Positions 224-21,380 of a stretch of 64,000 nucleotides of DNA are shown here, in pieces. The notes under the pieces are model-generated. The model made no database searches. It had not been told where the DNA came from and was given only the letters and a program-made list of their open reading frames with translations. This DNA is from an uncultured Paracoccaceae bacterium. GTDB taxonomy: Bacteria; Pseudomonadota; Alphaproteobacteria; Rhodobacterales; Rhodobacteraceae. Location of the stretch: contig CANLQO010000002.1 of NCBI GenBank assembly GCA_947493335.1, positions 248,001 to 312,000 of the forward strand, in the 5' to 3' direction. The position numbers and the translations under genes were made by a program. How positions within the stretch are numbered: the first letter of the stretch is position 1; each line of letters opens with the position of its first letter.

Positions 224-1231
224 ATGTTGAAATTTACGCGTCGTGCCGCGATCGCCTCGGTTGCCGCACTTGGCTTGGCGGCTTCTGCGCTTCCTGCAGC
301 TGCAGACGGGCACAAAGTGACATTTACATTGGCAACGTCCGGCTCTGAAACAGATCAGCGTTCTGTTGCCATGGCCGAAGTCTTTGCGCCGATGGTGGCG
401 GCCTTTGCCGATTATCAGGCCGGTTACAACGGCACGCTATTCGCACAGGGCACTGAGCTGGAAGCCATCGCAGGTGGCAATCTGACCATGTCGATCGCCT
501 CTGCGCAGGAACTGGCACAGTTCTTCCCGGAATTTTCGATCTTTGCGACCGGATATGTCCATCAGGACGCAGCACATCAGGTCCGCGTTTTCAATGACCC
601 GCTGATGGACCCGTTCAAGCAAAAGGTTGAAGACGAGCTTGGCGTGAAGCTGCTGTCGGTCATGTACCTTGGCCGCCGCCACGTGAACCTGCGGCAAACC
701 CGCGATGAACTGGACGTGCAGACACCGGCCGATCTGGCAGGTGTGAACTTGCGGATGCCCGGTACCGATGCATGGCAGTTCCTCGGCGCTGCCCTTGGCG
801 CATCGCCCACACCGCTGGCCTTCTCGGAAGTGTATACATCACTTGCATCGGGCGCGATTGACGGCCAGGACAACCCGCTTCCGACCGTTGTTGACCAGAA
901 GTTCTATGAGGTGACCAAGCAAATCTCGCTCACGTCGCATCTGGTTGACCTGAACTATATCGCGTTCTCGCTCGAGACATGGAACAGTCTGACCCCGGAC
1001 CAGCAGCTTGTCGTTCAGCGCGCCGCTGACGCTGCCGCTGCTTATGGCCGACTGAAGCAGCTCGACAAGGAAAACAATCTGGCCGACTTTATCCGTAGCC
1101 AAGGCGTTGAAATCTACACACCGGACCTTGAAGCGTTCCGCACCCATGTGCAGGCGCAGTATGTCGGCAGCGAAGCTGCGGCATCCTGGCCCGAGGGTGT
1201 TCTGGATCGCATCAACGAGCTGGGCAACTAA
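224..1231 (+). CDS. dctP: TRAP transporter periplasmic solute-binding protein (DctP family)
   Basis: 335 residues. A Sec signal peptide (positive MLKFTRR, hydrophobic core to about residue 25, cleavage near AAA-DG) leads into a DctP-type fold. The conserved LRMPG segment carries Arg177, the position that in this family normally salt-bridges the carboxylate of the ligand. The later segment SGAIDGQDNPLPTV is also typical. The start has a strong Shine-Dalgarno sequence (GGGAGG) 8 bp upstream. It is the first gene of a run with dctQ and dctM and lies behind the palindromic operator at 123-141. The expected ligand is an organic or sugar acid; the specific substrate cannot be assigned. Confidence 0.93.
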   Translation: MLKFTRRAAIASVAALGLAASALPAAADGHKVTFTLATSGSETDQRSVAMAEVFAPMVAAFADYQAGYNGTLFAQGTELEAIAGGNLTMSIASAQELAQFFPEFSIFATGYVHQDAAHQVRVFNDPLMDPFKQKVEDELGVKLLSVMYLGRRHVNLRQTRDELDVQTPADLAGVNLRMPGTDAWQFLGAALGASPTPLAFSEVYTSLASGAIDGQDNPLPTVVDQKFYEVTKQISLTSHLVDLNYIAFSLETWNSLTPDQQLVVQRAADAAAAYGRLKQLDKENNLADFIRSQGVEIYTPDLEAFRTHVQAQYVGSEAAASWPEGVLDRINELGN

Positions 1232-1262
1232 GCCACGAGCAGCCAGCCTCGGGAGAGCCAAG

Positions 1263-1823
1263 ATGAAGAAGCTTCAAGAATGGTTCACCCGTGGCGCAGA
1301 GTTCATCGCCGCCATGTCTTTGGCGGCGATTTTTTTCACGTTTCTTCTGCAAATTCTGTTCCGGTACGTCCCGTTTCTCGAACCCATCGGATGGTCAGTG
1401 GTCTTGATCTCTCTGCTGTGGGTCTTTGTGATTTTCTTCGGCTGCGCGTTCATCGTCCGAGAATCCGACCACGTCGCGTTTGATGTCCTTTATCTGGCCG
1501 TGCCACGACATGTCCGCAAAGTTCTTGCGCTGGTCAGTGCCGTCCTGATGGTCATTGCAATGCTCTATTCTCTGCCCGCCATGTGGGAAACGGTGTTCGC
1601 AAACCGCCTGATGGACCTGAAGAAAATTCAAACCATTCGGATGCCGATTACCGGCGACAAGATCGCGATAAAATGGCTGTTTGCACCCTTTGTGATGCTG
1701 ATGATCGTCGCCACGTTGCGCTATCTTTGGCGCATCTACACGGTGCTGCGCTTTGGTCCACCCGAGACCGAGATGGAAAAGTTGCTTGGCGGTGAGACCG
1801 ACAAGGCGGAGTTGGATCAATGA
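1263..1823 (+). CDS. dctQ: TRAP transporter small permease (DctQ family)
   Basis: 186 residues from the ATG at 1263, which has GGGAGAG a few bases upstream; the frame is open further upstream but that part overlaps dctP. Four hydrophobic segments are visible (about residues 13-35, 48-66, 88-108 and 140-160), with the conserved RES/D pattern (IVRESDHVAFDVL) in the cytoplasmic loop after helix 2. DctQ bridges the binding protein and the large permease in Na+-driven TRAP uptake. It overlaps dctM by the 4 bp ATGA, which indicates translational coupling. Confidence 0.9.
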   Translation: MKKLQEWFTRGAEFIAAMSLAAIFFTFLLQILFRYVPFLEPIGWSVVLISLLWVFVIFFGCAFIVRESDHVAFDVLYLAVPRHVRKVLALVSAVLMVIAMLYSLPAMWETVFANRLMDLKKIQTIRMPITGDKIAIKWLFAPFVMLMIVATLRYLWRIYTVLRFGPPETEMEKLLGGETDKAELDQ

Positions 1824-3115
1824 GCCCTGAGCTGATCCTCGGCATGGCCGCTTTGTTTGGCATGGCGGCCATTGGCACGCCAGTTGCCTATGCCATCCTC
1901 GTCGGTGTTCTGGTTTATCTTGGGGTCTCCGGACAGGATTTGGCCATCGCCGGAACCACAATGGTGCAACGGTTGTTTGATGGCTTCTTGTTGCTGGCTG
2001 TCCCGCTTTTTATCGCGTCCGCCAACATCATGAATGCCGGAACAATCTCGGATCGGCTTTTGCAATTCTGTATCGCGCTTGTAGGGCGCTTCCGGGGCGG
2101 AATGGGTCATGTGAACGTCGTCGCCAGCCTGATTTTTTCAGGCATGTCCGGCTCTGCCGTGGCCGACGCCGCCGGGATCGGCAAGATTATCATCGACATG
2201 ATGGTCAAAAGCGGGCGCTACACCCGTGGCTATGCGGCTGCCATCACGGCCGCGACCGCCACCATCGGACCTATCATTCCTCCGTCCATTCCCATGGTGC
2301 TTTATGCGCTGGTGTCCAACGAATCCGTTGGTGTCCTGTTTCTGGCAGGCATCGTTCCGGGTCTGGTCATGGGTGCCGTGCTGATGGGCATGAATTTCGT
2401 CATCTCACACAGACGCGGCTTTGGGCAGGAAGAGCCGGTTCCCTTGCGCGAGTTGCCGAAACTTACGGCACGCGCAACGCCCGCATTGTTGATGCCGGTC
2501 ATCCTGCTTGGCTGCATCTATTCAGGTGTGACCACACCGACAGAAGCGGCGGCAATCGCGGCTCTTTACGCGCTGATCGTTGCGGCAGGCCTTTATCGCG
2601 CGATCCAGATCAAAACGCTTTATCAAATATTCGTCGAAAGCGCGCGCTCGGCGGCCTCTGTCGGGCTGGTCATCGGGGCGTCGATGATCCTGACCTACGT
2701 CGTCATTCAGGAAAACGTGCCGCAGGCAATCTCTGACATGTTCTCGGGCGCTGACATCAGCCCGCTCATGTTCATTCTGCTGGTAAACATCCTTGTGCTG
2801 CTTTTGGGCTGTATTCTGGATGCCACGGTCATCATCCTTGTCATCATCCCGCTCTTCATTCCGACCTGCCGCGAACTGGGCATCGACCTTGTGCATTTCG
2901 GCGTGCTGATTGTCGTCAATTCAATGATCGGATTGATCACGCCGCCATATGGCATCCTTCTGTTTGTCATCAATGCGGTCACAGGAATTCCGCTGAAAGA
3001 GATCATCGCCGAAGTTTGGGCGTTCCTTGCGGTTCTGCTTGGCGCTTTGCTCCTCATGATCCTCGTTCCGGACATCGTCCTGTGGCTGCCGCGCCTGTTC
3101 GGGTATCAGGGATGA
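1820..3115 (+). CDS. dctM: TRAP transporter large permease (DctM family)
   Basis: 431 residues, the usual family length, with about twelve hydrophobic segments. Recognisable motifs include FSGMSGSAVADAAGIGKI near residue 95 and IGPIIPPSIPMVLYALVS near residue 150, both hallmarks of the DctM/ion-transporter superfamily core, and GVTTPTEAAAIAALYALIV near residue 235. This subunit forms the transport pathway and works with the DctP and DctQ proteins encoded just upstream. Start and stop overlap the neighbouring genes by 4 bp, so dctPQM and the fusion gene after it form one transcript. Confidence 0.93.
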   Translation: MSPELILGMAALFGMAAIGTPVAYAILVGVLVYLGVSGQDLAIAGTTMVQRLFDGFLLLAVPLFIASANIMNAGTISDRLLQFCIALVGRFRGGMGHVNVVASLIFSGMSGSAVADAAGIGKIIIDMMVKSGRYTRGYAAAITAATATIGPIIPPSIPMVLYALVSNESVGVLFLAGIVPGLVMGAVLMGMNFVISHRRGFGQEEPVPLRELPKLTARATPALLMPVILLGCIYSGVTTPTEAAAIAALYALIVAAGLYRAIQIKTLYQIFVESARSAASVGLVIGASMILTYVVIQENVPQAISDMFSGADISPLMFILLVNILVLLLGCILDATVIILVIIPLFIPTCRELGIDLVHFGVLIVVNSMIGLITPPYGILLFVINAVTGIPLKEIIAEVWAFLAVLLGALLLMILVPDIVLWLPRLFGYQG

Positions 3116-4998
3116 CCCGGCTTTCGGTCGCAACGACGAATGTTCCCGGTGATCTGCCGCAGAAACTGGAACAGATCGCGGCGGCGGGGTTCTCTGGTGT
3201 CGAGCTTTATGAACCCGATCTGACAGGCTTTGCAGGCAGCGCGGACGAGATCGGCAAGCTGGCGCGCGCGCTGGGCCTTAACATCGAGGTCATGCAGCCG
3301 TTCCATGATTTCGAGGGATTGACTGACGATGCCCGCAAGGCCGCATTTTCGCGCCTCAAGCACAAGTTGGACCTGATGACGGCGCTTGGTGCCCGAACGC
3401 TGCTGATCGGAAGCAGCACACATCCGGAAGCATCATCAGATTTCGCACAGATCACCGAAGACTTCCGGGAATTGGCGGATTGCGTTGGCAGCGCAGGTTG
3501 TCGCGCCGCCTTGATTGCTTTGCCTTGGGCGCGGCACCTCACGACCGAGCTGAACGCGCTGAAGATCGTTGAGGCCGTAAACAGCCCCGCCTTTGGTATC
3601 GCGCTGAATTCATTCTTTTCACTTGCCGGGGGCGAACAGGCTGCCCGGCTGCGGGACATTCCCGGAGATCAGATATTTCATGTCCAGCTTTCTGACGCCC
3701 CTGCCCTTGAATTTGATATCACACGTCTGAAAAGCCACTTCAGCCTGTTGCCGGGGCAAGGCGGGCTGAACTTGGCAAGTTTTGTCCGGATCGTTGCGCG
3801 ATCAGGCTATCAGGGCCCGTGGTCAATCGCCCGCGTCGGGGCGACCGCAGAAGGTAGCCGGGCGGCCCACGCCCGGGATGCATTTCGCGCGTTGGCTTCG
3901 CTATTGGATGAGGTCGCCATACGTGAGCCTGCATTGGCACATCCGCTTGAAGGCCTACCACCGCGCGTCACTCCAACCGGTCTGGAATTTCTTGAATTTG
4001 CAGCCGCAGGCGCTGACCATGACCGTCTCGCGCGGCTTCTGGAAACCATGTGTTTTCGCAAGGAACGCCAGCACCGGTCCAAATCGGTCGAGCTTTGGCG
4101 TCAGGGCGCAATCAACATCGTGGTCAACTCAGAATCCAAGGGCTTCGCCGCCAAAGCCCGCGCCGAACATGGGCCCTGCGTCTGTGACATGGGATTGCGT
4201 GTTCAGGACGCTGAACAAACGGTGGCGCGGGCCACGGCCCTTGGTGCGCCCGAATTTTCACAACCCGTCGGGACGGGCGAGTTGGATATTCCTGCCATCA
4301 AAGGCGTTGGCGGGTCCGTTGTGCACTTCATCGATGAGAAGTCCGACCTGCATCGCGTCTGGGATATCGAGTTCGATCCCGTACCAAAGGAACGTAGCGT
4401 TCAGCCCGTCGGCCTCCGGCGCATCGACCATGTCGCCCAAACCATGCGCTACCAAGAGATGCAAAGCTGGCTGACTTACTACCTGTCGACTTTTGAGATG
4501 GAAAAGGCAGACGTGGTCGACGTGGCCGACCCGTCGGGCATCATTCTCAGTCAGGCACTGGCCAGCCCGGAAGGCGAAGTTCGGTTGAACCTCAATGGCG
4601 CAGGAGAGCGGCGCACCTTTGCAGGTGCCTTTCTGGCACAAGGGTTTGGCGCAGGCGTGCAGCATCTGGCGTTTCTAAGCGATGATATCTTCGAGACATC
4701 CGATCTGCTTGCCGCCGCCGGATTTGAACGGTTGGCAATGCCCGCAAACTACTATGAAGACCTGCGGGTTCGCTTCGATATGGACGACAATCTGGTCACC
4801 AAATTGAGGGCCGGTGACATCCTCTATGACCGCGACGGTCGGGGGGAGTATTTTCAGATCTATTCGGCCCCGTTCTGGGGCGGGTTCTTCTTTGAAATCG
4901 TGGCGCGCAAAGGGGGCTACCAAGGCTACGGCGCACGCAATGCACCGATCCGGCTGGCCGCGCAGATGCGTCATCTGAAAGAGACGGAGGCGGCATGA
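3112..4998 (+). CDS. 3-dehydroshikimate dehydratase-like / 4-hydroxyphenylpyruvate dioxygenase-like fusion with altered barrel site
   Basis: 628 residues from the ATG at 3112 (4-bp overlap with dctM). Residues 1-275 form a sugar-phosphate-isomerase/dehydroshikimate-dehydratase TIM barrel (QPFHDFEG, FHVQLSDAP); residues 290-620 are two VOC modules of the HPPD type. The layout is that of QuiC1-type fusions. The dioxygenase facial triad is intact: His440 (RIDHVAQ), His518 (GVQHLAF) and Glu595 (FFFEIVARKGG). In the barrel, the QuiC1 metal ligands Glu134, Asp165, Gln191 and Glu239 (numbers recalled from the literature) line up at a constant offset of +1 with Ile135, Asn166, Gln192 and Ala240. Three of four ligands are therefore missing, and the barrel is probably not a working dehydratase. 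The next gene overlaps by 4 bp. Confidence 0.85.
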   Translation: MTRLSVATTNVPGDLPQKLEQIAAAGFSGVELYEPDLTGFAGSADEIGKLARALGLNIEVMQPFHDFEGLTDDARKAAFSRLKHKLDLMTALGARTLLIGSSTHPEASSDFAQITEDFRELADCVGSAGCRAALIALPWARHLTTELNALKIVEAVNSPAFGIALNSFFSLAGGEQAARLRDIPGDQIFHVQLSDAPALEFDITRLKSHFSLLPGQGGLNLASFVRIVARSGYQGPWSIARVGATAEGSRAAHARDAFRALASLLDEVAIREPALAHPLEGLPPRVTPTGLEFLEFAAAGADHDRLARLLETMCFRKERQHRSKSVELWRQGAINIVVNSESKGFAAKARAEHGPCVCDMGLRVQDAEQTVARATALGAPEFSQPVGTGELDIPAIKGVGGSVVHFIDEKSDLHRVWDIEFDPVPKERSVQPVGLRRIDHVAQTMRYQEMQSWLTYYLSTFEMEKADVVDVADPSGIILSQALASPEGEVRLNLNGAGERRTFAGAFLAQGFGAGVQHLAFLSDDIFETSDLLAAAGFERLAMPANYYEDLRVRFDMDDNLVTKLRAGDILYDRDGRGEYFQIYSAPFWGGFFFEIVARKGGYQGYGARNAPIRLAAQMRHLKETEAA

Positions 4999-5807
4999 GC
5001 AAAGACGCCGACGCGGTGCGCCACTGGTGGCGAACCGCGATCATCGACATGGCACCCGGTCGGATTGCCTTTCGCGGGCATCCGATCGAGGATTTGATTG
5101 GCAGCGTCAGCTTTGGGCAGATGATCTGGCTGATGACGCGCGGCGATCTGCCGTCGCCAGAACAGGCGGCGCTGCTGGAGTGCGCCCTTGTCGCAGGTGT
5201 GGATCATGGTCCGCAGGCACCGTCGATTGCCGCCGCGCGCATGGCGGCAACCTGCGGCATCGGCCTTAACAACGTCATGGCGACAGGCGTCAATATGCTG
5301 GGCGATGTCCATGGCGGAGCTGGCGAACAATGCGCAGAGCTTTACGAGGATGTCGCTGCGCGCATGGATGCTGGCGAAGGGCTTCGGGCCGCCACGCGCA
5401 ATGGCCTCGGCGCGTGGCGCGAGGCCAATGGCAAGATCGTTCCGGGCTTCGGCCATCGGTTCCACAAACCCGTCGACCCGCGCGCGCCGCGTCTGATGAA
5501 ATTGGTCCGCGAGGCAGCGGAGGCAGGCACCGTATCGGGCCGGTTCGCCGTAATCGGAGAGGCATTGCAGTCTGAAATCGGTCGCGCCCGCGGCGCAGAG
5601 ATTGCGATGAACATCGACGGCGCGACGGCCGTGATCTTTTGCGAGCTTGGCTTCCCGCCACCACTATCGCGAGGCTTGTTTTGCCTGAGCCGGTCGGTCG
5701 GCGTTCTGGCCCACGGTTGGGAACAAATGCAACAGGGCGGACGCAACAAGGGGCCGATGCCGCCTGCATATTTGCCTGAATACACACCACAGGGGGACAA
5801 TGTGTGA
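4995..5807 (+). CDS. Citrate-synthase-fold protein, citryl-CoA-lyase-like
   Basis: 270 residues, much shorter than full citrate synthase (about 400 or more), resembling the compact citryl-CoA-lyase or ATP-citrate-lyase C-terminal type. The three catalytic positions of the fold are present: His106 (DVHGGAGE), His154 (GFGHRFHKPVDPRA) and Asp208 (NIDGATAV), with spacing close to the His-His-Asp triad of GltA. A cleavage or condensation of a CoA thioester is expected; direction and substrate are unknown. It sits between the fusion gene and a dehydrogenase, with overlaps on both sides, so it belongs to the catabolic operon and not to the TCA cycle. Confidence 0.78.
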   Translation: MSKDADAVRHWWRTAIIDMAPGRIAFRGHPIEDLIGSVSFGQMIWLMTRGDLPSPEQAALLECALVAGVDHGPQAPSIAAARMAATCGIGLNNVMATGVNMLGDVHGGAGEQCAELYEDVAARMDAGEGLRAATRNGLGAWREANGKIVPGFGHRFHKPVDPRAPRLMKLVREAAEAGTVSGRFAVIGEALQSEIGRARGAEIAMNIDGATAVIFCELGFPPPLSRGLFCLSRSVGVLAHGWEQMQQGGRNKGPMPPAYLPEYTPQGDNV

Positions 5808-6984
5808 GCGCGCGAAAGCCTTCCGGGTCGGTCTGATAGGCACCGGTCGCATCAGCGACATCTATCTCAAGAACATCAGGGATTTTGCAGGCGTCGAGAT
5901 CACGGCCTGCGGGAGCCTCAACATGGACGAAAGCCGCGCCAAGGCGGCAGAGCACGGCGTGCCGCGTGTCATGACACCGGAAGAGATCATCGCCGATCCT
6001 GACATCGACGCCGTGCTGAACCTGACCATCCCGGCGGCCCATGCGGGTATCAGTCTGGCAGCGCTTCAGGCCGGCAAGCACGTCTATTCCGAAAAACCCT
6101 TTGTCACCGATCTGGCAGAAGGGCAGCGCATACAGGATTTGGCGAAGGCGCGCGACCTGAAGGTAGGAAGTGCGCCGGATACGTTCTTTGGCGGACGCTG
6201 GCAAACTCTCCGCAAGCTTCTGGATAGCGGCGTGATCGGCGAACCGCATGGGGTATCCGCCTTTGTGCCGACCAGCGGGGTCGAGCGCCACCACCCGAAC
6301 CCGGATTTCTACTATGCCAAGGGCGGCGGGCCCCTGCTGGACCTCGGCCCATACTATCTTGCGGCCATGGTGTTCTGCCTTGGCCCGATTGCGCGGGTTG
6401 CCGGGCTGGGGCGCAAGCGGGAAGCCAGCCGTCTGATCGAAAACGGCCCCCGGAAAGGCCAAAGAATGCCCGTCGAAGTCGACACACATTGCCTAAGTCT
6501 GATCGCGTTCGAAAACGGTGTTGTGGGGCAGATGATGGTCAGCTTCGACGTCTGGGAAAGTGAAACGCCGCGTCTGGAAATCTACGGCACCAAAGGCACA
6601 GTTTGTATCCCTGATCCTGATCCGGGCGATGGTGCCAATATTTTTCAAGGGCCGGTCTGGGTGCGTACCCGCGACACCGCGCGCTGGACAATGCGGCCCC
6701 GGCCGAATGCACCACCGGAATGGGAGGTGGCCGAGAATACACACGGGCTGAATTTTGATGCGCGTGGCATCGGGTTGGCGGATTTGGCCGCAGCCGTGCG
6801 CGAAGGACGAGAGCCCCGCGCCAGCGGCGCGCTTGGCCTGCATCTTTGCGAGGTCATGGAGGGGATGCTGCAAAGTTCAAACCTGGGCGGCTTTGTGGAC
6901 ATCGAAAGCACCTGCACCCGCCCACCGATGCTGGCCGAGACAAAAGAACAAGGCCTGAATGTCGATCTGAAAACTGTGCCATGA
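5800..6984 (+). CDS. Gfo/Idh/MocA family oxidoreductase
   Basis: 394 residues. N-terminal Rossmann fold with GLIGTGRISDIYLKNI (residues 10-25) for NAD(P). The family EKP motif is intact (YSEKPFVTD, Lys99). The later active-site region reads LLDLGPYYLAAMV, the variant with tyrosines where many relatives have G-x-H-x-x-D. Substrates in this family are usually sugars, inositols or sugar acids oxidised or reduced at a hydroxyl group. It starts 8 bp inside the end of the citryl-CoA-lyase-like gene and overlaps the next gene by ATGA. Confidence 0.88.
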   Translation: MCERAKAFRVGLIGTGRISDIYLKNIRDFAGVEITACGSLNMDESRAKAAEHGVPRVMTPEEIIADPDIDAVLNLTIPAAHAGISLAALQAGKHVYSEKPFVTDLAEGQRIQDLAKARDLKVGSAPDTFFGGRWQTLRKLLDSGVIGEPHGVSAFVPTSGVERHHPNPDFYYAKGGGPLLDLGPYYLAAMVFCLGPIARVAGLGRKREASRLIENGPRKGQRMPVEVDTHCLSLIAFENGVVGQMMVSFDVWESETPRLEIYGTKGTVCIPDPDPGDGANIFQGPVWVRTRDTARWTMRPRPNAPPEWEVAENTHGLNFDARGIGLADLAAAVREGREPRASGALGLHLCEVMEGMLQSSNLGGFVDIESTCTRPPMLAETKEQGLNVDLKTVP

Positions 6985-7640
6985 CCATCGAAACGCTGAC
7001 CATCGGCGATCCGTTTTTCGCCATCCGTATCCTCAAAGATGAGGACATCCACCAGATCACCGGGAAAACCATCGTTCTGAATCTCGCTGATGCACCCCTT
7101 CGGGTTCGTGAACAGACCCTTGGCACGCTGCAATCGGCGATCCTGAAGGATACCGAGGTTCGCGACGCGGCGCATGCCGTCCTGATCGAAGGATTTGCCG
7201 ACCACGGTGACGAAACCGCCCTCCTTTCCCGCATCCGGGACACTTGGCCGTCGGCGTATCAGGTGCGTGGCGAGGAACGGTTACGTGGTCTCGAACACTA
7301 TATGTCGCCCAAGGTCTGGATCGGGCAGTTTGGCTTTACCCTTTATCATTCCGCGGCCGTACCGCTGAATGTTGGTCTGCATCGCGATCACGCCTTTTGC
7401 CGGGTGCCGGGCTTCCGCGAGGTGCACACCCAAATCATCGGCTTCGGCAAGATGCAGCAATGCCGCGAGAAAGACGTCGAAACGCTTTACCTCGAAGAAC
7501 CAATGGCCCCGGGCGCGACCCATCGGCCCATGTATGACGCCGACGGGAACTACCCTTGGCACCAATTCGAAACCATCACGCCCTCGGTTTTCATGGCCGT
7601 CGAAATGCTGCCAGAGGGCGCAGTTCCGCCGGAGGTTTGA
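6981..7640 (+). CDS. Conserved protein of unknown function, histidine-rich, possibly cupin-like
   Basis: 219 residues from the ATG at 6981 (ATGA overlap with the dehydrogenase before it). No family was recognised with confidence. The middle and C-terminal part carries regularly placed histidines: His134 and His137 (GLHRDHAF), His149 (EVHTQIIGFG), His181 (PGATHRPMY) and His194 (YPWHQFE). The spacing, with glycine and proline turns, resembles a metal-binding beta-barrel such as a cupin, but this is inference. There is no signal peptide or membrane segment. Placement between two Gfo/Idh genes in a tight operon implies a role in the same pathway, perhaps a lactonase, isomerase or hydrolase step. 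Confidence 0.6.
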   Translation: MTIETLTIGDPFFAIRILKDEDIHQITGKTIVLNLADAPLRVREQTLGTLQSAILKDTEVRDAAHAVLIEGFADHGDETALLSRIRDTWPSAYQVRGEERLRGLEHYMSPKVWIGQFGFTLYHSAAVPLNVGLHRDHAFCRVPGFREVHTQIIGFGKMQQCREKDVETLYLEEPMAPGATHRPMYDADGNYPWHQFETITPSVFMAVEMLPEGAVPPEV

Positions 7641-7643
7641 AGC

Positions 7644-8822
7644 ATGCTATTGCCAGATCAGATTGACATTGATGCGCCGATTCCTCGCTTGTCCCGCCGT
7701 TTGCGTCTGGGCGTAGTCGGTGGTGGCCGCATTGCAGGGATGCAGGCCATGGCCGCACGGATGACTGACCGCTGGGAAGTTGTCGCCGGGGCGTTCTCGT
7801 CCGACCCGGCCCGTGCCAAAGCGGCGGCGACAAGTTGGTATCTTCCAAAGGATCGCTGTTACGCTTCGTTCTCTGTGATGGCCGCTGCCGAAGCGGCCAG
7901 AGACGATGGCGTTGACGCGGTGATGATCACGACGCCAAACCACCTGCATTTCGACTGCGCGAAAGCATTCCTGCAGGCCGGGATTGACGTGCTTTGTGAT
8001 AAGCCGTTGACCAACGATGTGGCCGAGGCGGAAGCCCTTGCAAAGCTGGTGGATCAGACCGGCTGCGTCTTTGGCGTCTCTTATGTCATGTCTTGCTTTC
8101 CGATGATCCGGCAGGCGCGCGAAATCGTGGCAGAGGGCAGGATCGGCAAGATCAACCAAATCCATGTCGAGTTCTTGCAGGACTGGATGACGCCCGAAGG
8201 TGTGGCCGACGCCCCTCATGTGAAATGGCGGCTTGATCCGGCCAAGTCGGGCAAGACAAGCTGTGTTGGCGACATCGGCACGCACGCGGCGCATCTGGCG
8301 AGCTTTGTCAGTCACCTCCCCCTGACTGCACTTCGCGCCGAATTTCACGTTTGCGGTGCGCCAAAGCAGTTAGAAGATACCTTCTTCGCCTGGACCCGTC
8401 ATGGTGATGTACCGGGGACGCTCATGGCCACACGGCTCGCACCCGGTAATCGCGGCGGCTTGCGGCTCCGCGTCTTTGGCTCTGAAGGGGGGCTGGAATG
8501 GGGTTTGGAAGACTGCGACCGGTTAAAGTTCAACCGGTTTGGGGAACCCGACCGTGTCATCAGCCGTGGCCACGGGCATGGGGTTTCGTCTGCCACAGAA
8601 AGGCTTGTCCGATCCGCACGGGGCTTTCCCGAAGGGATTATCGAAGCGTGGGGCAATCTTTATACCGAATTCGCCATGGCCGTGGCCGCCCGCCTTGATG
8701 GGCGCGAGCTGCCCGACGGTTGGCTTGGCATGCCACGCGTTGCCGATGGGGCCGAAGGCGTGCGGTTCATTGCTGCCAGTGTGCAGTCGAATGAGGCTGG
8801 CGGCACTTGGGTGAGAATCTGA
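7644..8822 (+). CDS. Gfo/Idh/MocA family oxidoreductase
   Basis: 392 residues. The Rossmann motif GVVGGGRIAGMQAM lies at about residues 28-41 behind a 20-residue leader that is not a signal peptide. The catalytic lysine motif is DKP (CDKPLTND, Lys120), and the canonical GDIGTHAAHLASF segment supplies the family Asp/His pair, unlike the neighbouring dehydrogenase at 5800. The two enzymes are therefore likely to act on different substrates or positions. It is the last gene of the first transcription unit: a 75-bp AT-rich gap with a second operator follows. The spacing of 3 bp to the preceding gene fits co-transcription. Confidence 0.88.
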   Translation: MLLPDQIDIDAPIPRLSRRLRLGVVGGGRIAGMQAMAARMTDRWEVVAGAFSSDPARAKAAATSWYLPKDRCYASFSVMAAAEAARDDGVDAVMITTPNHLHFDCAKAFLQAGIDVLCDKPLTNDVAEAEALAKLVDQTGCVFGVSYVMSCFPMIRQAREIVAEGRIGKINQIHVEFLQDWMTPEGVADAPHVKWRLDPAKSGKTSCVGDIGTHAAHLASFVSHLPLTALRAEFHVCGAPKQLEDTFFAWTRHGDVPGTLMATRLAPGNRGGLRLRVFGSEGGLEWGLEDCDRLKFNRFGEPDRVISRGHGHGVSSATERLVRSARGFPEGIIEAWGNLYTEFAMAVAARLDGRELPDGWLGMPRVADGAEGVRFIAASVQSNEAGGTWVRI

Positions 8823-8831
8823 TAATTGATG

Positions 8832-8860
8832 ATTTACAAAATATCTGACATTTTGTAAAT
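8832..8860. promoter_or_regulatory. Palindromic operator, second copy, upstream of the isomerase-like gene
   Basis: A 29-bp inverted repeat. The left arm ATTTACAAAATATC and right arm GACATTTTGTAAAT pair at 13 of 14 positions around a central T. Its core (8837-8855) matches the site at 123-141 at 17 of 19 positions. It ends 37 bp before the next start codon, in the only sizeable gap between 3.1 and 13.0 kb. The shared sequence links the two transcription units to one regulator, whose gene is not in the window. Confidence 0.72.
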
Positions 8861-8897
8861 AATAGGAGAATAGTGACTCGGTCCGGGGAGGCCACCC

Positions 8898-9776
8898 ATG
8901 TCAGATGTCCAGCAAGCCGACCGAAGCGAGCCGCTTTTTTCCCTTGCCCATCTGACGTTGATTAACTGCACCCCGGCGGAACTGGTCTACGTCGCAGCAC
9001 GCGCTGGGTACGATGCCGTAAGCCCGCGCCTGATTTCCATGAACGTCCCCGGGGAATTCGCCCATTCTGCGTTGGACAAAGCGCAGGTGCAGGCCACGAA
9101 AACGGCACTTGAAACCACGGGGCTTCAGGTGCTGGATATCGAACTGGCCCGGATCACCGAAGACTGCGACCCGCGCGATTTTGAGGCGGCGCTTGAGCTT
9201 GGTGGAGAACTGGGCGCGCGTCACATGATCATGTCGGCCTGGACTACGCGGCGGGACGACCGGAATTTTCTGTTGGATGTCTATGCCGAGACCTGCGATC
9301 TGGCGGCGCCCTTTGGCCTGACAATCGACCTGGAGTTTCCGTCATTCTCGCGCCTCAGAACGCTGGACGAAGTGCTTGATATCGTGCGCGCCGCCGACCG
9401 GCCCAACGGTGGCATCCTGGTGGACACACTTTATCTGCATCTCAGCCGTGTCGATCTTGGTGAACTTTTGCATGTCCCGCCTGAGTGGCTGCATTTCCTG
9501 CACATCTCTGACTGCTTGCCCGGCATTGCCGACACGCGCGAGGGCATGATCCAGCTGGCACGTGACGCACGACTTTATCCCGGCGAAGGGTGGATCGACT
9601 TTGCCGGCATCATCGAGCGTTGCCCGCCAATGAATTATTCCATCGAACTGCCCAACCAGAGCCGGGTTGTGGAACTTGGTTACGAAGAACACGCCCGCCG
9701 CTGCCTGACACACGCCAAACAGACATTCGGCGCAGCCCGTTCCAAACGCCGGGTTTCCGCGCCACTCGCGGCCTGA
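8898..9776 (+). CDS. Sugar phosphate isomerase/epimerase family protein (xylose-isomerase-like TIM barrel)
   Basis: 292 residues. A single TIM-barrel domain of the AP-endonuclease-2/xylose-isomerase-like superfamily. The four expected divalent-metal ligands are all visible: Glu in IDLEFPSF, Asp in LVDTLYLH, His in LHISDC and Glu in YSIELPN. This contrasts with the degenerate barrel of the fusion protein at 3112, so this protein may carry out the isomerase or dehydratase step in the locus. The ATG follows GGGGAGGCCACCC. It opens the second transcription unit behind the operator at 8832-8860 and is followed by the aldehyde dehydrogenase after 35 bp. Confidence 0.83.
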   Translation: MSDVQQADRSEPLFSLAHLTLINCTPAELVYVAARAGYDAVSPRLISMNVPGEFAHSALDKAQVQATKTALETTGLQVLDIELARITEDCDPRDFEAALELGGELGARHMIMSAWTTRRDDRNFLLDVYAETCDLAAPFGLTIDLEFPSFSRLRTLDEVLDIVRAADRPNGGILVDTLYLHLSRVDLGELLHVPPEWLHFLHISDCLPGIADTREGMIQLARDARLYPGEGWIDFAGIIERCPPMNYSIELPNQSRVVELGYEEHARRCLTHAKQTFGAARSKRRVSAPLAA

Positions 9777-9811
9777 CCTTGAAACATCCAAGCCTTGAGA
9801 GGAAGCCGTGA

Positions 9812-11221
9812 ATGGCACGTGAGTTGACAGAAGACGAAAAGGCCCATGCGCATGACCTGCTGGCGCGCGCCCGCGCCGCCCAGTCCCAGATCGAAGACTG
9901 GACGCAGGACCAATTGGACCGGCTAAGTCAGGCGATTGCGTGGTACGCCGGAAACGAGAAAACGTTCACCCGGCTGGCCGAACAGGGCGTGGATGAAAGC
10001 GGTATCGGCGACCGCAACGGCCGCCCTGCAAAGCGTTTCAAGATCCAGATGGTATTGCGCGATGTGTTGCGCACGCCGTCTACTGGCATCGTCGACGTGG
10101 ACGAAGCAAAGGGACTGGTAAGATACGCAAAGCCGGTGGGTGTCATCGCGTCGCTCATCCCGATGACCAACCCGGCGATGACGCCGCCAGTGACGGGCGT
10201 ATCCTCGGCGAATGCGCGCAACGCGGTGATCTTTTCGCCTCATCCGCGCACGGCGCAAACAACGTGGGAGATGACCGAAGTGATGCGCGCCGCTTGCCGC
10301 GCTGCCGGTGCGCCAGAGGACCTTTTCCAGGCGATCCGCAAACCGTCGATCCCCCTGACGCAATATCTGATGAAAATCTGCGACCTGACCTTGGCCACAG
10401 GCGGCAAACCAATGGTGGAGGCTGCCTATTCCAGCGGCAAGCCTGCCTACGGTGTCGGCGCGGGCAACTCTTCAATCGTCATTGATGAGACCGCGGATAT
10501 CGAGATTGCTGCCCGGAACACGCGCATCTCCAAGACATCTGACTTCGGCTCGGGATGTTCGGCCGATGGCAACATCATCATTCAGCGGTCGATCTACGAC
10601 CGGATGGTGCAGGCGCTGATCGACGAGGGCGGCTATCTCTGTTCGCCCGAAGAAAAGGCGCTGCTAGAGGCGGCGATGTGGGACGAAAAGGGCAACCGCA
10701 CTTTCCCGACCATCGCCTGCCGCCCACAGCAAACCGCAGACGTAGCGGGTTTCTCGATCCCCCAGGATCGCAAGTTCCTGATGGTGGAAAATCAGGGCCA
10801 GATCGGGCCAGAGCACAAATTCTCAAAAGAGAAGCTGACGACCCTGATGGCGCTTTATCACTTCGCGACCTTCGACGATGCGCTCGAAACGGTCGCGGCG
10901 ATCTACAACACGGGCGGGAAGGGCCATTCCTGCGGTATCTACAGCCATAACGATGAGAATATCGACCGGCTGGCGCGTCTGGCACCGGTCAGCCGGATGA
11001 TGGTCCGCCAGCCACAATCAAAGGCCAATGCAGGCGCCTGGACCAACGGGATGCCAATGACCTCCAGCCTCGGATGTGGCGTCTGGGGTGGCAACATCAC
11101 AAACGAGAACGTCACCATGAAACACATGATGAATTACACCTGGGTCAGCCGTCCGATCCCAGAGGATCGCCCCTCAGAAGAAGAACTGTTCGGTGAATTC
11201 TACGGACAAGAGGTCGCGTGA
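9812..11221 (+). CDS. CoA-acylating-type aldehyde dehydrogenase
   Basis: 469 residues. An aldehyde dehydrogenase superfamily protein of the shorter, CoA-acylating branch (related to the AdhE N-terminal domain, EutE and sulfoacetaldehyde dehydrogenase SauS). The nucleophile is Cys249 in FGSGCSADGN. The N-terminal ALDH portion includes VGVIASLIPMTNPAMTPP, typical of the acylating group. The reaction expected is aldehyde + NAD(P)+ + CoA to acyl-CoA. GAGGAAGCC precedes the ATG. The stop overlaps the next start by 1 bp (TGATG), so it is coupled to the ThDP enzyme, which could supply its aldehyde. The SauS resemblance alone does not show a sulfonate substrate. Confidence 0.82.
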   Translation: MARELTEDEKAHAHDLLARARAAQSQIEDWTQDQLDRLSQAIAWYAGNEKTFTRLAEQGVDESGIGDRNGRPAKRFKIQMVLRDVLRTPSTGIVDVDEAKGLVRYAKPVGVIASLIPMTNPAMTPPVTGVSSANARNAVIFSPHPRTAQTTWEMTEVMRAACRAAGAPEDLFQAIRKPSIPLTQYLMKICDLTLATGGKPMVEAAYSSGKPAYGVGAGNSSIVIDETADIEIAARNTRISKTSDFGSGCSADGNIIIQRSIYDRMVQALIDEGGYLCSPEEKALLEAAMWDEKGNRTFPTIACRPQQTADVAGFSIPQDRKFLMVENQGQIGPEHKFSKEKLTTLMALYHFATFDDALETVAAIYNTGGKGHSCGIYSHNDENIDRLARLAPVSRMMVRQPQSKANAGAWTNGMPMTSSLGCGVWGGNITNENVTMKHMMNYTWVSRPIPEDRPSEEELFGEFYGQEVA

Positions 11222-13026
11222 TGCCGGACGGAAAAACAATCAGCAAACTGGACGGCAAAACCGTCGCGGAACATATCGTCGACGCCCTTGAACGGCGGGA
11301 CGTTAAACACGTCTTTGGCCTGTGCGGACACACGAACATCGCCGTGCTGGCCGCTTTGGCGGATAGCCCTATCGACTTCATCACTGTGCGGCACGAGCAA
11401 ATCGCAAGCCACGCCGCCGATGCCTATGCCCGCGTGCAAGGCCGCGCATCGGTGGTGCTGTCGCACCTCTCCCCCGGCCTGACAAACTGCGCCACAGGCG
11501 TCGCCAACGCCGCCTTGGATTGCATCCCGATGGTGGTGATCGCGGGTGATATCCCCACGCACTACTACGGCAAGCATCCGCATCAAGAGGTCAACCTGCA
11601 CGCGGATGCAGCCCAGTGGGAGATTTATCGCCCCTTCGTCAAACGCGCTTGGCGCGTGGATCGTGCCGACCTGATGGCCGAAATCCTGGAAAAGGCCTTT
11701 CATCTTGCTGAAAGCGGCCAACCAGGCCCGGTTCTGGTGAATGTGCCGATGGACATCTTCAGCGAAGTGATCCCGTCGGACAGCTTTGACCGGGTTGCAA
11801 AGAACACCAAAGCACTCGTCAAGCCTTCGCTCGACGACGAAACAGCGGCCCGGATTGTGAGTGATCTGGCAGCCGCCAGGGATCCCGTCGCGTATATTGG
11901 CGGCGGGATCCTGCTTGCGCAGGCCTCTGCCGAGATGGAGGCCTTTGCCGAACATATGGGCCTGCCCATTGCGCATTCGCTGATGGGCAAAGGTGCCGTG
12001 CGCGATGACCACCCTCTTGTGATGGGCATGACCGGGTTCTGGGGTACAGAGCTGGTGAACCAGACCTGTTTGAATGCAGATTGCGTCTTTGCCGTGGGTA
12101 CGCGGTTCAAAGAGGCCGATTGTTCCAGTTGGTATCCCGGATACACTTTCAACATCGCTGCGAAGGGAAATGATACCAAGGTCATCCACATCGACATCGA
12201 GCCACAAGAAATCGGTCGCAACTACCCGACCGAGATCGGCGTGGTTGCGGATGCCAAGGCTGCACTGCGCGTTCTGCTGCGAGTGGCGAAAGACATGTAT
12301 CCAAAGGGCTTCGACCGGGCCGAAAAGAAGGCCGAGATCGCGGCGTTCCGCGAAAACTTCAAGGCCTCCAATCTCGAGATGCAGACATCTGCCGCCTTCC
12401 CGATGATGCCAGAGCGTATTCTGGCCGATACACGCAAGGCGCTCCCTCGCGACGCGATCATCACGACCGACGTCGGTTGGAACAAGAACGGCGTCGGTCA
12501 GCAATTCGACATCCTGACACCGGGTTCGATCCTGACACCCGGCGGCTTTGCCACGATGGGCTTTGGTCCGCCGGGGGCCATCGGGGCCAAACTTGCCGCC
12601 CCGGACAAAGTTGTCCTTAGCCTCGTTGGCGACGGCGGCTTTGGGCAAAACCCTTCTATGTTGGCAACGGCCGTCGAACTGAACCTCGGCATCGTCTGGC
12701 TGGTGATGAACAACAATGCCTTCGGAACCATCGCCGGGCTGCAAAAGGCGCATTACGGTCTGACGTATGGCACGACCTTTCCCGGCCCGCCCGCGGCACC
12801 CACCAACGGACCGTGCTATGCCGAAATCGCGCGCGCCTATGGCGCAGACGGCGTGCGGATCCGCTCCGCACAGGAATTGCTGCCCGCGTTAGAGGCCGCC
12901 ATCGGCTCTGGCCGCCCCACCGTCCTGGACGTGCCGATGATCAATAACCCGACGCCAACGACCGGGCACTGGAACATTCTGGACATCTATTCCCCGGACA
13001 AGGACGTCTCTCACGTATCGACTTAA
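11221..13026 (+). CDS. Thiamine-diphosphate-dependent enzyme (acetolactate-synthase-like)
   Basis: 601 residues from the ATG at 11221 (a GTG one codon earlier is the alternative). Three-domain ThDP enzyme: Pyr domain with the cofactor-activating Glu59 (RHEQIASHAADAYAR), a central domain, and a PP domain with the ThDP/Mg motif GDGGFGQN (from Gly470) ending in MNNNAFGT. It resembles the AHAS, glyoxylate-carboligase and 2-oxoacid-decarboxylase group. Substrate is not assigned: it could decarboxylate a 2-oxo acid to an aldehyde for the acylating dehydrogenase just upstream, or cleave a cyclic diketone as IolD does. It is the last gene of the island. Confidence 0.83.
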   Translation: MPDGKTISKLDGKTVAEHIVDALERRDVKHVFGLCGHTNIAVLAALADSPIDFITVRHEQIASHAADAYARVQGRASVVLSHLSPGLTNCATGVANAALDCIPMVVIAGDIPTHYYGKHPHQEVNLHADAAQWEIYRPFVKRAWRVDRADLMAEILEKAFHLAESGQPGPVLVNVPMDIFSEVIPSDSFDRVAKNTKALVKPSLDDETAARIVSDLAAARDPVAYIGGGILLAQASAEMEAFAEHMGLPIAHSLMGKGAVRDDHPLVMGMTGFWGTELVNQTCLNADCVFAVGTRFKEADCSSWYPGYTFNIAAKGNDTKVIHIDIEPQEIGRNYPTEIGVVADAKAALRVLLRVAKDMYPKGFDRAEKKAEIAAFRENFKASNLEMQTSAAFPMMPERILADTRKALPRDAIITTDVGWNKNGVGQQFDILTPGSILTPGGFATMGFGPPGAIGAKLAAPDKVVLSLVGDGGFGQNPSMLATAVELNLGIVWLVMNNNAFGTIAGLQKAHYGLTYGTTFPGPPAAPTNGPCYAEIARAYGADGVRIRSAQELLPALEAAIGSGRPTVLDVPMINNPTPTTGHWNILDIYSPDKDVSHVST

Positions 13027-18170: not shown

Positions 18171-18857
18171 CTATTTCCCAAGATAGGCTTTCAGCGCTTC
18201 GGGTGGGTCTGCAAAAAGTTCCTGCGTCGGCACAGGCGGGGCAGCGACACCGGCACTGACCAAAATCACCTGATCCGCCGCACGCTGTGCATCGTCAGGG
18301 TCATGGGTCACCATCAGCACCGTGCGCCCGACCAGCTTTTCGCGCACAAGCGCAAGCATTTCGGCCCGCATGCCGGGGCCAAGTGCAGCAAAGGGTTCGT
18401 CAAGCAGGACCACGGGTCGATCCGCCACAAGCAACCGCGCAAGGGCCGCGCGGCTTTGCTGGCCACCTGACATCGCGGCGGGCTTGCGCTGTTCCATGCC
18501 GTCCAGTCCTACGGCCCGCAGCGCCTCTGCCACCGCCAAGAGATCCGTCTGTGACAATTTGAGGTCAGGGCGTAGCCCCAGACCAACGTTTTGTGCGATT
18601 GTCAGGTGCGGAAACAGGTTGTTGTCCTGAAAAAGCGTCGAGATCGGGCGCGCACCGGGCGCGGCGTCGGTGATATCCTGATCCTGCCAAAGCACGCGGC
18701 CGGCTGCCCCGTCCTGAAATCCTGCAATCGCGGCAAGCAGCGTCGACTTGCCACCGCCAGATGGGCCAATGATCGCCGTAATCCCCGGTTGCACCGTCAG
18801 ATTGGCAGACAGCTGGAATGCACCCAGAAAGATGCGCAATCCATCAAGCGTCAGCAT
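18171..18857 (-). CDS. thiQ: Thiamine ABC transporter ATP-binding protein
   Basis: 228 residues. A complete ABC ATPase: Walker A GPSGGGKST (about residues 33-41), Q-loop LFQDNNLFPHLT, signature MSGGQQSRAALAR, Walker B VVLLDEPFAALG and the H-loop VTHDPDDA. It is short, as ThiQ proteins are, with no C-terminal regulatory domain. It powers import of thiamine or its phosphates together with ThiB and ThiP. The start overlaps the end of thiP by 14 bp, and the whole unit lies behind a TPP riboswitch at 21381-21480. Confidence 0.93.
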   Translation of the reverse strand: MLTLDGLRIFLGAFQLSANLTVQPGITAIIGPSGGGKSTLLAAIAGFQDGAAGRVLWQDQDITDAAPGARPISTLFQDNNLFPHLTIAQNVGLGLRPDLKLSQTDLLAVAEALRAVGLDGMEQRKPAAMSGGQQSRAALARLLVADRPVVLLDEPFAALGPGMRAEMLALVREKLVGRTVLMVTHDPDDAQRAADQVILVSAGVAAPPVPTQELFADPPEALKAYLGK

Positions 18858-20352
18858 CGCGGCGGCCTCCCTGATCGCACAGCCAGAACAGCAACAGTGA
18901 CAGCGCCAGCAACAAGAGGCCAGCGCCTGCCGCCGCCTCCATCCGATAGGACCCCATCAGCCGGTACATGGCCAGCGGCAGCGTTTCCTGTGCCTCGCCC
19001 GCAAACAGCGTGATCACCCCCAGATCCCCCATCGACAGCGCCGCAGCCAACCCTGCCGCAAACCCCAAGGGCCTTCGGATGCGCGGAAAAACAACGATGC
19101 GCAACCTGTTCCATCCCTGCATCCCCAGACTTTCGGCCAACTTTCCATAGTCCGCCTTCACATCCGCGACCGCTGGGCCGATTGCCCGCACGGCAAAGGG
19201 CAGCGCCAGCGTGGCATTCACCAGAATGGTCACTGGCAGGGCCACACTCCGCGGCGAGACAAAAGGATAGACCAACACAAAAAGACCGGTCCCCATCACC
19301 AGCCCAGAGGCTGCCAGCGGCATCACCCCGATGACCGAAACCGCCACGCCGCCGCGCAAGGACAATGCAACGGCAAGGACAACACACAACCCGGCCGAAC
19401 CTGTCGCCACCATGATCGACCGCCCCGCGGCGGCCCAAACTGCACTCGGCATCTCGATCAGGCCGGGCACGCCGCGCAGTACCACCATCGCAAGCGGCAA
19501 CAGCAAGAACAACGCAACCAGCGACAGGGCTGCGGCGTCAACGGCGGCGCGTCCCTGATCCCACCGCTGCACAATCCGGTCCATGCCGCGCCCCATGCCT
19601 TGGGTCGGCGTGACCTGCCACGCCACAAACGCCGCCGACAAGCCCAGTCCGAACTGGATGCAGGCCAGCAGGGCCGCGCGCCCCAGATCGAAATCGAACT
19701 GGATCGCCTGATAGATCGCAAGCTCCACAGTCGTGGCTCTTGGTCCGCCACCCAGCGTCAGCGCCACGGCAAAGCTTGTCAGACAAATCAGAAAGATCAC
19801 CAGTGCCGCACCCGGCACGACCCGCGCCAGCATCGGCACTTCCAACAGCCGGAAGACCGACCCGTTGAGCGAGGCGACAAGCCGGAAACGTTCTGCCGGG
19901 ATCGCCTGCCAGCCTTGCAGGATCAGCCGCACCGCCAAGGGCAAATTGAAGAACACATGCGCCAGCACCACGCCCCAAAAACCGTAGATGCTGATCTGCG
20001 GCAGACCGACTGCGGCCAACGCGCTGTTGATCACGCCACCGCGCCCAAAGACCGCCAAAAGACCCAGCACAGCGACAATGACCGGCAACAGAAACGGCGC
20101 ACCCAAAAGCGTGATCAGAATGCGCCGCCCCCGAAACGACCGCCGGGCCAGCGCCCGGGCCGCTGGGATGGCCAGCACCACACTCAGCATCGCAGACATG
20201 ATCGCTTGTGTGATTGTAAACCGGACCGCCGCCCAATCAGCCGCGGATAATCCGCGACCAAGTTCTGCCCGCCAGCCGACTGCGGCAAGGGTGCCAAGGG
20301 TCAACCCCAGCACCAGCGCCATCGCCAGCCATGCGGGCAGCTTTTGGATCAC
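18844..20352 (-). CDS. thiP: Thiamine ABC transporter permease
   Basis: 502 residues from a GTG at 20352 that forms a GTGA overlap with the thiB stop; an earlier GTG at 20373 is also possible. Two MetI-like permease halves are visible, each with an EAA-type loop (one near RFRLVASLNGSVFRLLEVPML, the other near LAESLGMQGWNRLRIVVFP), and about twelve hydrophobic helices in all. This duplicated architecture is the rule for ThiP. It forms the membrane channel for the ThiB-delivered ligand. Confidence 0.92.
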   Translation of the reverse strand: MIQKLPAWLAMALVLGLTLGTLAAVGWRAELGRGLSAADWAAVRFTITQAIMSAMLSVVLAIPAARALARRSFRGRRILITLLGAPFLLPVIVAVLGLLAVFGRGGVINSALAAVGLPQISIYGFWGVVLAHVFFNLPLAVRLILQGWQAIPAERFRLVASLNGSVFRLLEVPMLARVVPGAALVIFLICLTSFAVALTLGGGPRATTVELAIYQAIQFDFDLGRAALLACIQFGLGLSAAFVAWQVTPTQGMGRGMDRIVQRWDQGRAAVDAAALSLVALFLLLPLAMVVLRGVPGLIEMPSAVWAAAGRSIMVATGSAGLCVVLAVALSLRGGVAVSVIGVMPLAASGLVMGTGLFVLVYPFVSPRSVALPVTILVNATLALPFAVRAIGPAVADVKADYGKLAESLGMQGWNRLRIVVFPRIRRPLGFAAGLAAALSMGDLGVITLFAGEAQETLPLAMYRLMGSYRMEAAAGAGLLLLALSLLLFWLCDQGGRRDADA

Positions 20353-21332: not shown

Positions 21333-21380
21333 ATCGTCCTCCATGAGCGGGCAGGCGAATGGGGGACTGCGGAATTGCAA

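Follow-up and report, generated by a model that had tools for sequence, protein, structure and literature searches.

A QuiC-type fusion protein of Paracoccaceae with a replaced dehydratase site and a retained dioxygenase-like half, a likely pseudoenzyme-enzyme fusion in a TRAP-fed operon

Introduction

What becomes of a two-domain dehydratase once the residues that define it as a dehydratase are gone? The question is raised by P0001, a fusion of a dehydroshikimate dehydratase (DSD) type barrel with a half resembling 4-hydroxyphenylpyruvate dioxygenase (HPPD), which is encoded in a 64,000-nucleotide stretch of an uncultured Paracoccaceae bacterium (contig CANLQO010000002.1, positions 248,001 to 312,000 of the forward strand; hereafter the window) behind the genes of a tripartite ATP-independent periplasmic (TRAP) transporter. 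The two-domain architecture is already known; the role of its C-terminal half in dehydroshikimate dehydratases is called unknown in the available excerpt of one study (PMC7442255), and an excerpt of another proposes that it gives structural stability (PMC9324987). Here we argue that P0001 is likely a pseudoenzyme-enzyme fusion, in which a scaffold barrel would carry a catalytic HPPD-like half within a TRAP-fed ring-acid operon. Our searches of open-licence papers brought up no account of a lineage that combines a dead dehydratase with inverted constraint.

Loss of the dehydratase site in P0001

The best solved relative of P0001 is QuiC1 of Pseudomonas putida (5hmq), matched at E 8.1e-134 over residues 4-619 with 38-39% identity over the aligned length, which agrees with the sequence-only reading of the barrel as QuiC1-like. 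The two-domain QuiC architecture, an AP_endonuc_2 barrel followed by the HPPD-like half, is present in P0001 by Pfam and by the 5hmq alignment, and both the architecture and the HPPD iron triad are common to the two proteins. What differs is the dehydratase site, which is complete in QuiC1 from R64 to E239 and replaced in the lineage of P0001. At the reference positions R64, L97, E134, L136, D165, H168, Q191, S206, R210 and E239 of QuiC1, which follow the active-site residue list for QuiC1 and QsuB in the excerpt of PMC7442255, P0001 carries H65, L98, I135, L137, N166, F169, Q192, K207, S211 and A240. The metal ligands E134, D165 and E239 are replaced by I135, N166 and A240, and Q191 is retained as Q192, which leaves the QuiC ligand set incomplete; the earlier claims that three of the four ligands are replaced and that the numbering runs at a constant offset of +1 to QuiC1 both hold in this alignment. 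Further active-site changes are R64 to H65, H168 to F169, S206 to K207 and R210 to S211. QsuB of Corynebacterium glutamicum is two-domain like P0001, with a C-terminal HPPD-like half that has no assigned reaction, but it is an active dehydratase that keeps all the residues listed in the same excerpt (PMC7442255), several of which are replaced in P0001. Against the NCBIfam model for QuiC (NF042435) P0001 scored 495.7 bits with a cut-off of 1200; this cut-off is narrow, because the fusion of genome G143, with its dehydratase ligands intact, also scores below it (662.7). By its defining residues, P0001 should not be called a dehydratase.

A lineage of lost-site fusions

Relatives were collected from genome contigs, near relatives, the family and the class, and the matches with a locus were read residue by residue; the interrupted or incomplete frames of L021, L034 and L035, the barrel-only match L038 (23%) and stand-alone HPPDs were left out before counting. 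A site was classed as intact if E134, D165 and E239 were kept, with Q or H at position 191. Among 99 distinct fusions, 46 lack Glu134, 51 are intact and two are odd (L047 with E-N-H-E, L110 with E-G-H-E) and were assigned to neither group. The duplicates L041 (= L008) and L086 (= L014) were removed from this count and retained in the identity comparison, the trees, the patristic distances and the larger pocket set described below, L041 being also within the 36-sequence pocket set. The incomplete L082 is included in the count and in the pairwise identities and excluded from the trees and patristic distances, and L027, with E at position 239, belongs to neither group in the pairwise-identity comparison.

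Of the 46 lost-site fusions, 44 have N in place of D165, 45 have lost E239 and 33 retain Q191; all of them carry the iron triad His-His-Glu, as do 50 of the 51 intact fusions. The 47 lost-site sequences placed in the trees group as a single clade whether the barrel or the HPPD half is used, and within this sample the loss therefore seems to have happened once. In clade 1 the former active site reads near-constantly I/L/M-L-N-F-Q-K-G-A, with exceptions including L012, L083, L088 and L089. More of the barrel is lost in clade 2 (about 580 aa), where positions 64, 206 and 210 are gapped and Gln191 is missing, and the barrel of the G606 protein is degraded further still. The sequence-only reading had suggested checking whether close homologues in other TRAP-linked operons share the losses. 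They do: Glu134 is missing from 46 distinct fusions, and the lineage sits in one conserved TRAP operon. Judging by these residues, the lost barrel site is a trait of the lineage and goes beyond chance. The reciprocal loss was seen in L162 from G354, a class-level relative whose dehydratase ligands are intact and whose triad reads H-Q-E (one of the 51 intact fusions).

Inverted constraint between the halves

For the identity, tree and distance comparisons the barrel was delimited at aa 3-262 and the HPPD-like half at aa 286-618. In the QuiC1-like relatives with an intact site the barrel is the more constrained half, whereas the opposite holds in the lineage of P0001. Mean pairwise identities of barrel and HPPD-like half were 75.9% and 58.4% in 23 intact enzymes, as against 56.7% and 71.5% in 33 lost-site sequences of clade 1 and 65.3% and 81.2% in 12 of clade 2. 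At a matched HPPD-half identity of 60-70%, the barrels of intact enzymes were 78.0% identical and those of clade 1 only 49.8%, and the ratio of patristic distances, barrel over HPPD-like half, amounted to 0.52 in 51 intact and 2.24 in 47 lost-site sequences. Constraint is inverted between the halves in the lost-site lineage, relative to the intact enzymes.

In a set of 26 sequences, 27 of 285 barrel positions and 122 of 343 positions in the remainder of the protein were invariant; D36, H190 and D195 are the D, E, H or C residues among these 27, and D36 and D195 also occur in QuiC1. The ratio of nonsynonymous to synonymous substitution rates (dN/dS), computed for 12 pairs of which 2 were saturated, stayed below 0.35 in the barrel wherever it was defined. 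It was higher in the barrel than in the HPPD-like half in nine of the ten pairs with both values defined and equal in one; for the pair P0001-L001 it was 0.084 in the barrel and 0.043 in the HPPD-like half. The barrel thus remains under purifying selection, and we read it as a maintained scaffold bearing the working HPPD-like half.

The HPPD-like half

The facial triad His440/His518/Glu595, which had earlier been described as intact, corresponds in alignments to the iron-binding residues H161/H240/E322 of Pseudomonas fluorescens HPPD (1cjx), whose numbering is used for the pocket positions that follow. P0001 also shares with this enzyme S201, N216, Q239 and Q309, which are retained in all 36 lost-site sequences of the pocket set. 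The pocket differs at Q225, which all 14 stand-alone HPPDs have but which gives way to F, L, M or I in each of the 36 lost-site sequences (F in P0001), and at P214 and L307, replaced by N and Y in all 36. In a larger set of 49 lost-site and 53 intact fusions, duplicates included and L147, L148 and L121 added, Q225 was absent from 49 of the former and 52 of the latter; since it is missing in both groups, its loss probably preceded that of the dehydratase site. Position 214 (N493 in P0001) behaves differently, being N in 48/49 lost-site fusions and in 0/53 intact ones, which have T, V or P there, and N214 therefore goes with the loss of the dehydratase site. Y307 is not specific to the lineage (46/49 lost-site, 21/53 intact). 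This larger set also takes in the two plasmid fusions described below and the fusion of G084. We take position 225 to be equivalent to Gln293 of Arabidopsis HPPD. In the plant enzyme, the Q293A exchange lowers efficiency ~3722-fold, according to an excerpt of PMC6750108.

P0001 does not reach the cut-off of the HPPD family TIGR01263 (218.3 against 277), and the same genome holds a second HPPD locus, L040, which matches the HPPD-like half only and has Q225. This half should therefore not be classed as a canonical HPPD; it probably keeps the iron chemistry with a different substrate.

The TRAP operon and its conservation

The genes from dctP through that of the thiamine diphosphate (ThDP) enzyme (224-13026) all lie on the same strand, with several overlaps of 4-8 bases (Table 1). 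Immediately upstream of dctP, and largely outside the window, lie a Gfo/Idh gene and a divergently oriented GntR gene. No Pfam or NCBIfam match was found for the u219 product at E 0.001 (chance-level matches only, E up to 5), and the ThDP enzyme reached no NCBIfam cut-off among the matches listed (25 of 51 families). The free-standing triosephosphate isomerase (TIM) barrel keeps E/D/H/E at its metal positions in the same operon as the fusion barrel that lost its ligands.

Table 1. P0001, its two halves and the other genes of the operon, in positions of the window
Feature	Coordinates	Strand	Evidence and remarks
DctP, TRAP solute-binding protein	224..1231	+	PF03480; closest solved chain 4pf6, E 1.5e-153
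DctQ, TRAP small permease	1263..1823	+	PF04290
DctM, TRAP large permease	1820..3115	+	TIGR00786, 388 bits; 4-base overlap with fusion start
P0001, DSD-HPPD fusion	3112..4998	+	open frame, ATG start, 628 aa; best solved match 5hmq
P0001, AP_endonuc_2 TIM barrel half, aa 3-262	3118..3897	+	PF01261; QuiC1 alignment
P0001, HPPD-like half, aa 286-618	3967..4965	+	PF14696, PF00903; iron triad H440/H518/E595 intact in alignments
Citryl-CoA lyase homologue	4995..5807	+	NF004864, 434.9 bits, above cut-off 261; 4-base overlap with fusion end
gfo1, Gfo/Idh/MocA oxidoreductase, accessory	5800..6984	+	PF01408
u219, 219-aa protein, accessory, found with Gfo/Idh genes	6981..7640	+	no family match
gfo2, Gfo/Idh/MocA oxidoreductase, accessory	7644..8822	+	PF01408
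Free-standing AP_endonuc_2 TIM barrel	8898..9776	+	PF01261; E/D/H/E metal positions present in alignment
Acylating aldehyde dehydrogenase, SauS/EutE-like	9812..11221	+	NF047625, 419.2 bits, below cut-off 600
ThDP enzyme, acetolactate-synthase-like	11218..13026	+	PF02775/02776/00205

We compared 50 loci of the lineage, including L131 (a duplicate of L008) and L021, L034 and L035, which are without an active-site reading; because the fusion or the free barrel served to find these loci, the sample is not blind. The homologue of citryl-coenzyme A (CoA) lyase was present in all 50, DctM in 47, the free TIM barrel and the upstream Gfo/Idh gene in 46 each, and the acylating dehydrogenase and ThDP enzyme in 42, with some contigs ending early; the accessory genes gfo1, u219 and gfo2 were found in 21, 19 and 18 loci. 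A homologue of shikimate dehydrogenase occurs in 12 of the 50 (three were scanned, all above the NF009201 cut-off), and a clustering of 61 loci, duplicates included, placed it in 14, among them L034, missed in the 50-locus count.

In the family sample the free TIM barrel was matched in 20 of 295 genomes at E 1e-40. All 17 genomes with a free barrel of at least 78% identity carry the fusion, and the 13 fusions read by residue among them are all lost-site, while the other four are on contigs equal in length to those of the loci L022, L025, L031 and L032, whose fusions had been read; the match in G248 (36%) lies in a different kind of gene neighbourhood. On two plasmids the fusion gene comes immediately after genes annotated as shikimate dehydrogenase and tripartite tricarboxylate transporter, and both fusions have intact sites. 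A gene set similar to that of G143 (see Discussion) occurs in G017 (L108), with an E-N-H-E barrel and a lyase-like gene judged by eye. The operon of G323 is split: the transporter genes, the fusion and the lyase sit on one contig of the L119/L120 pair and the TIM barrel and ThDP genes on the other, and in L029-L031 the TIM barrel and ThDP genes were not within the retrieved stretch.

Discussion

The proposal that the barrel is a scaffold and the dioxygenase-like half the working part, put forward by the sequence-only reading, has gained support from the losses fixed in a clade, from the triads kept in every lost-site fusion, from the inverted distance ratio and from the further decay of the barrel in clade 2 and G606 while purifying selection persists. 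The QuiC1-type barrel, in which three of the four catalytic-metal ligands are replaced, is presumably metal-free and inactive and would most likely act in oligomerisation or as a scaffold. The catalytic part would be the HPPD-like half with its 2-His-1-Glu site, probably an Fe(II)/O2-dependent enzyme of the vicinal oxygen chelate (VOC) superfamily acting on a substrate other than 4-hydroxyphenylpyruvate.

Several findings weigh against this proposal or the pathway in which we place it. In the excerpt of PMC7442255 the C-terminal half of the intact QsuB is inactive on protocatechuate and is given a proposed role in oligomerisation. The near-constant N166/Q192/K207-type pattern of clade 1 points to a possible residual ligand-binding role of the barrel. 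In genome G143 (L109, 8010-14909) the fusion of a related cassette retains its dehydratase ligands, and the cassette alone therefore does not go with ligand loss; the genes for TIM barrel, acylating dehydrogenase and ThDP enzyme adjoin the fusion there, a gene resembling 3-hydroxy-3-methylglutaryl-CoA (HMG-CoA) lyase belongs to the cassette, a citryl-CoA-lyase homologue was not found where that gene stands, and the genome gave no match to protocatechuate 3,4-dioxygenase. Genome G496 carries the rest of the operon, gfo1-u219-gfo2 included, and no fusion. This contradicts the idea that the core pathway cannot do without the fusion; the HPPD-like half is therefore usual but not indispensable to that pathway, into which it may feed a second substrate. 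Lastly, no shikimate-dehydrogenase homologue was detected in 38 of the 50 loci, and protocatechuate 3,4-dioxygenase is above its cut-off in 12 of the 17 operon genomes and not in the other 5; because of these two counts we infer the substrate class rather than assign it.

The clade 1 pattern, together with the purifying selection on the barrel, could alternatively mean that the barrel has been re-purposed for metal-free chemistry or ligand sensing by Asn166, Gln192 and Lys207. We consider this improbable, as clade 2, lacking positions 64, 206 and 210 and Gln191, and the degraded G606 protein occupy the same operon, and as so few barrel positions are invariant, with two of the three acidic or histidine residues among them shared with QuiC1. 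Little likelihood is also given to an HPPD-like half that is itself structural, with an oligomerisation role as for QsuB and a fusion without catalytic function. The inactivity of the QsuB C-terminus on protocatechuate (PMC7442255, excerpt) and the absence of the fusion from G496 fit such a role, but a half that merely supported an active barrel would be expected to relax once the barrel died; instead it is the slower-evolving half, its triad is kept in all 46 lost-site fusions and a pocket residue has been replaced and fixed.

The triad and the four pocket residues conserved in 36/36 sequences would suit a plain 4-hydroxyphenylpyruvate dioxygenase with a useless N-terminal extension, yet this is very unlikely in view of the missing Gln225 (0/36, against 14/14 in stand-alone HPPDs), the exchanges P214N and L307Y in the same 36, the score under the family cut-off and the presence of another HPPD locus, with Gln225, in the genome. 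In addition, no homogentisate enzyme was among the matches listed for the scanned operon proteins (for u219 there were none at all). That the losses stem from faulty assembly or from a pseudogene decaying in this one genome can practically be dismissed: the interrupted copies L021 and L034 in metagenome-derived contigs speak weakly for it, but 46 distinct proteins, drawn from isolates as well as metagenomes, show losses at the same positions, a clade-wide conservation that contradicts such an origin, and the pair P0001-L001 is under purifying selection.

Returning to the pseudoenzyme-enzyme fusion, we place P0001 in an operon for the TRAP-fed catabolism of what would probably be a quinate/shikimate-type ring acid. 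The sequence-only reading had given the dioxygenase-like half no named substrate, and this stands, although the operon context nonetheless points to that class of acids. Carbon would bypass protocatechuate and run from the free TIM barrel to the ThDP enzyme and on to the acylating aldehyde dehydrogenase, giving an acyl-CoA that the citryl-CoA-lyase homologue would then split.

We tentatively outline a more specific scheme, which as a whole we regard as unlikely, of a non-aromatising quinate-type route via homocitryl-CoA, with the HPPD-like half as a new iron oxygenase supplying a second ring substrate. The route would start with oxidation of the ring to 3-dehydroquinate, after which the free TIM barrel could eliminate the C5 hydroxyl to give a 3,4-diketone; IolE and QuiC, of the same fold class, eliminate water beside a ketone. 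Ring opening between C3 and C4, by the ThDP enzyme or the HPPD-like half, would give homocitrate semialdehyde, which the acylating dehydrogenase could convert to homocitryl-CoA and the citryl-CoA-lyase homologue could cleave to acetyl-CoA and 2-oxoglutarate. A 3-hydroxy-3-carboxy-acyl-CoA is suggested by the succession of acylating dehydrogenase and citryl-CoA-lyase homologue, and carbon 1 of quinate is a C(OH)(COOH) centre of this kind. The HMG-CoA-lyase-like gene in G143 fits a retro-Claisen step. The enzyme types of the myo-inositol pathway (IolG/IolE/IolD/IolA), namely Gfo/Idh dehydrogenase, AP_endonuc_2 barrel, ThDP enzyme and acylating aldehyde dehydrogenase, likewise occur together, but the operon described here adds the citryl-CoA-lyase homologue. 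If true, a non-aromatising route with an iron oxygenase would give the C-terminal half of two-domain dehydratases its first assigned function. We found nothing in the open-licence literature on quinate together with citryl-CoA lyase, quinate together with a TRAP transporter in Rhodobacteraceae, or quinate/shikimate catabolism in Roseobacter.

The lineage is of interest beyond this pathway, since it separates the two functions naturally, with the dehydratase residues gone and the other half evolving more slowly. The HPPD-like half could be assayed here with no dehydratase background to be expected, and the operon partners narrow the candidate substrates to a few. The inverted ratio offers a clean example of a functional hand-over within one polypeptide. 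It also bears on annotation, as a protein with about 39% identity to QuiC1 could be named a dehydratase or an HPPD and is probably neither.

Other pathways were considered for the operon. A sulfonate pathway, suggested by SauS/Xsc-like names, was rejected, as neither partner reaches its cut-off (Table 1 gives the failed SauS test of the acylating dehydrogenase) and some operons contain shikimate-dehydrogenase homologues. The closest solved DctP, 4pf6, which we take to be a Roseobacter denitrificans protein with bound 3-deoxy-D-manno-octulosonate (KDO), is a lead only; KDO could mimic a ring acid, and a KDO or sugar-acid pathway was not retained. Cleavage of protocatechuate at the 4,5-position, with Gfo/Idh as the dehydrogenase for 4-carboxy-2-hydroxymuconate semialdehyde (CHMS) and citryl-CoA formed afterwards, would explain the lyase; it needs hydrolase and hydratase genes, which had no match among those listed for the scanned operon proteins, the search being confined to these proteins within the genome. 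Identity of the ThDP enzyme with IolD was likewise rejected, as it scores 232.4 with a TIGR04377 cut-off of 715 and another protein of the genome exceeds that cut-off. Behind the ThDP gene, 12 of the 50 loci have an HpaI/GarL-like aldolase, e.g., L022 (16613-17443) and L023 (16724-17488). About 5 kb from the operon in the window lies a thiamine ATP-binding cassette (ABC) transporter (18171-21380, minus strand), with ThiB above its cut-off and the ThiP- and ThiQ-like proteins below theirs.

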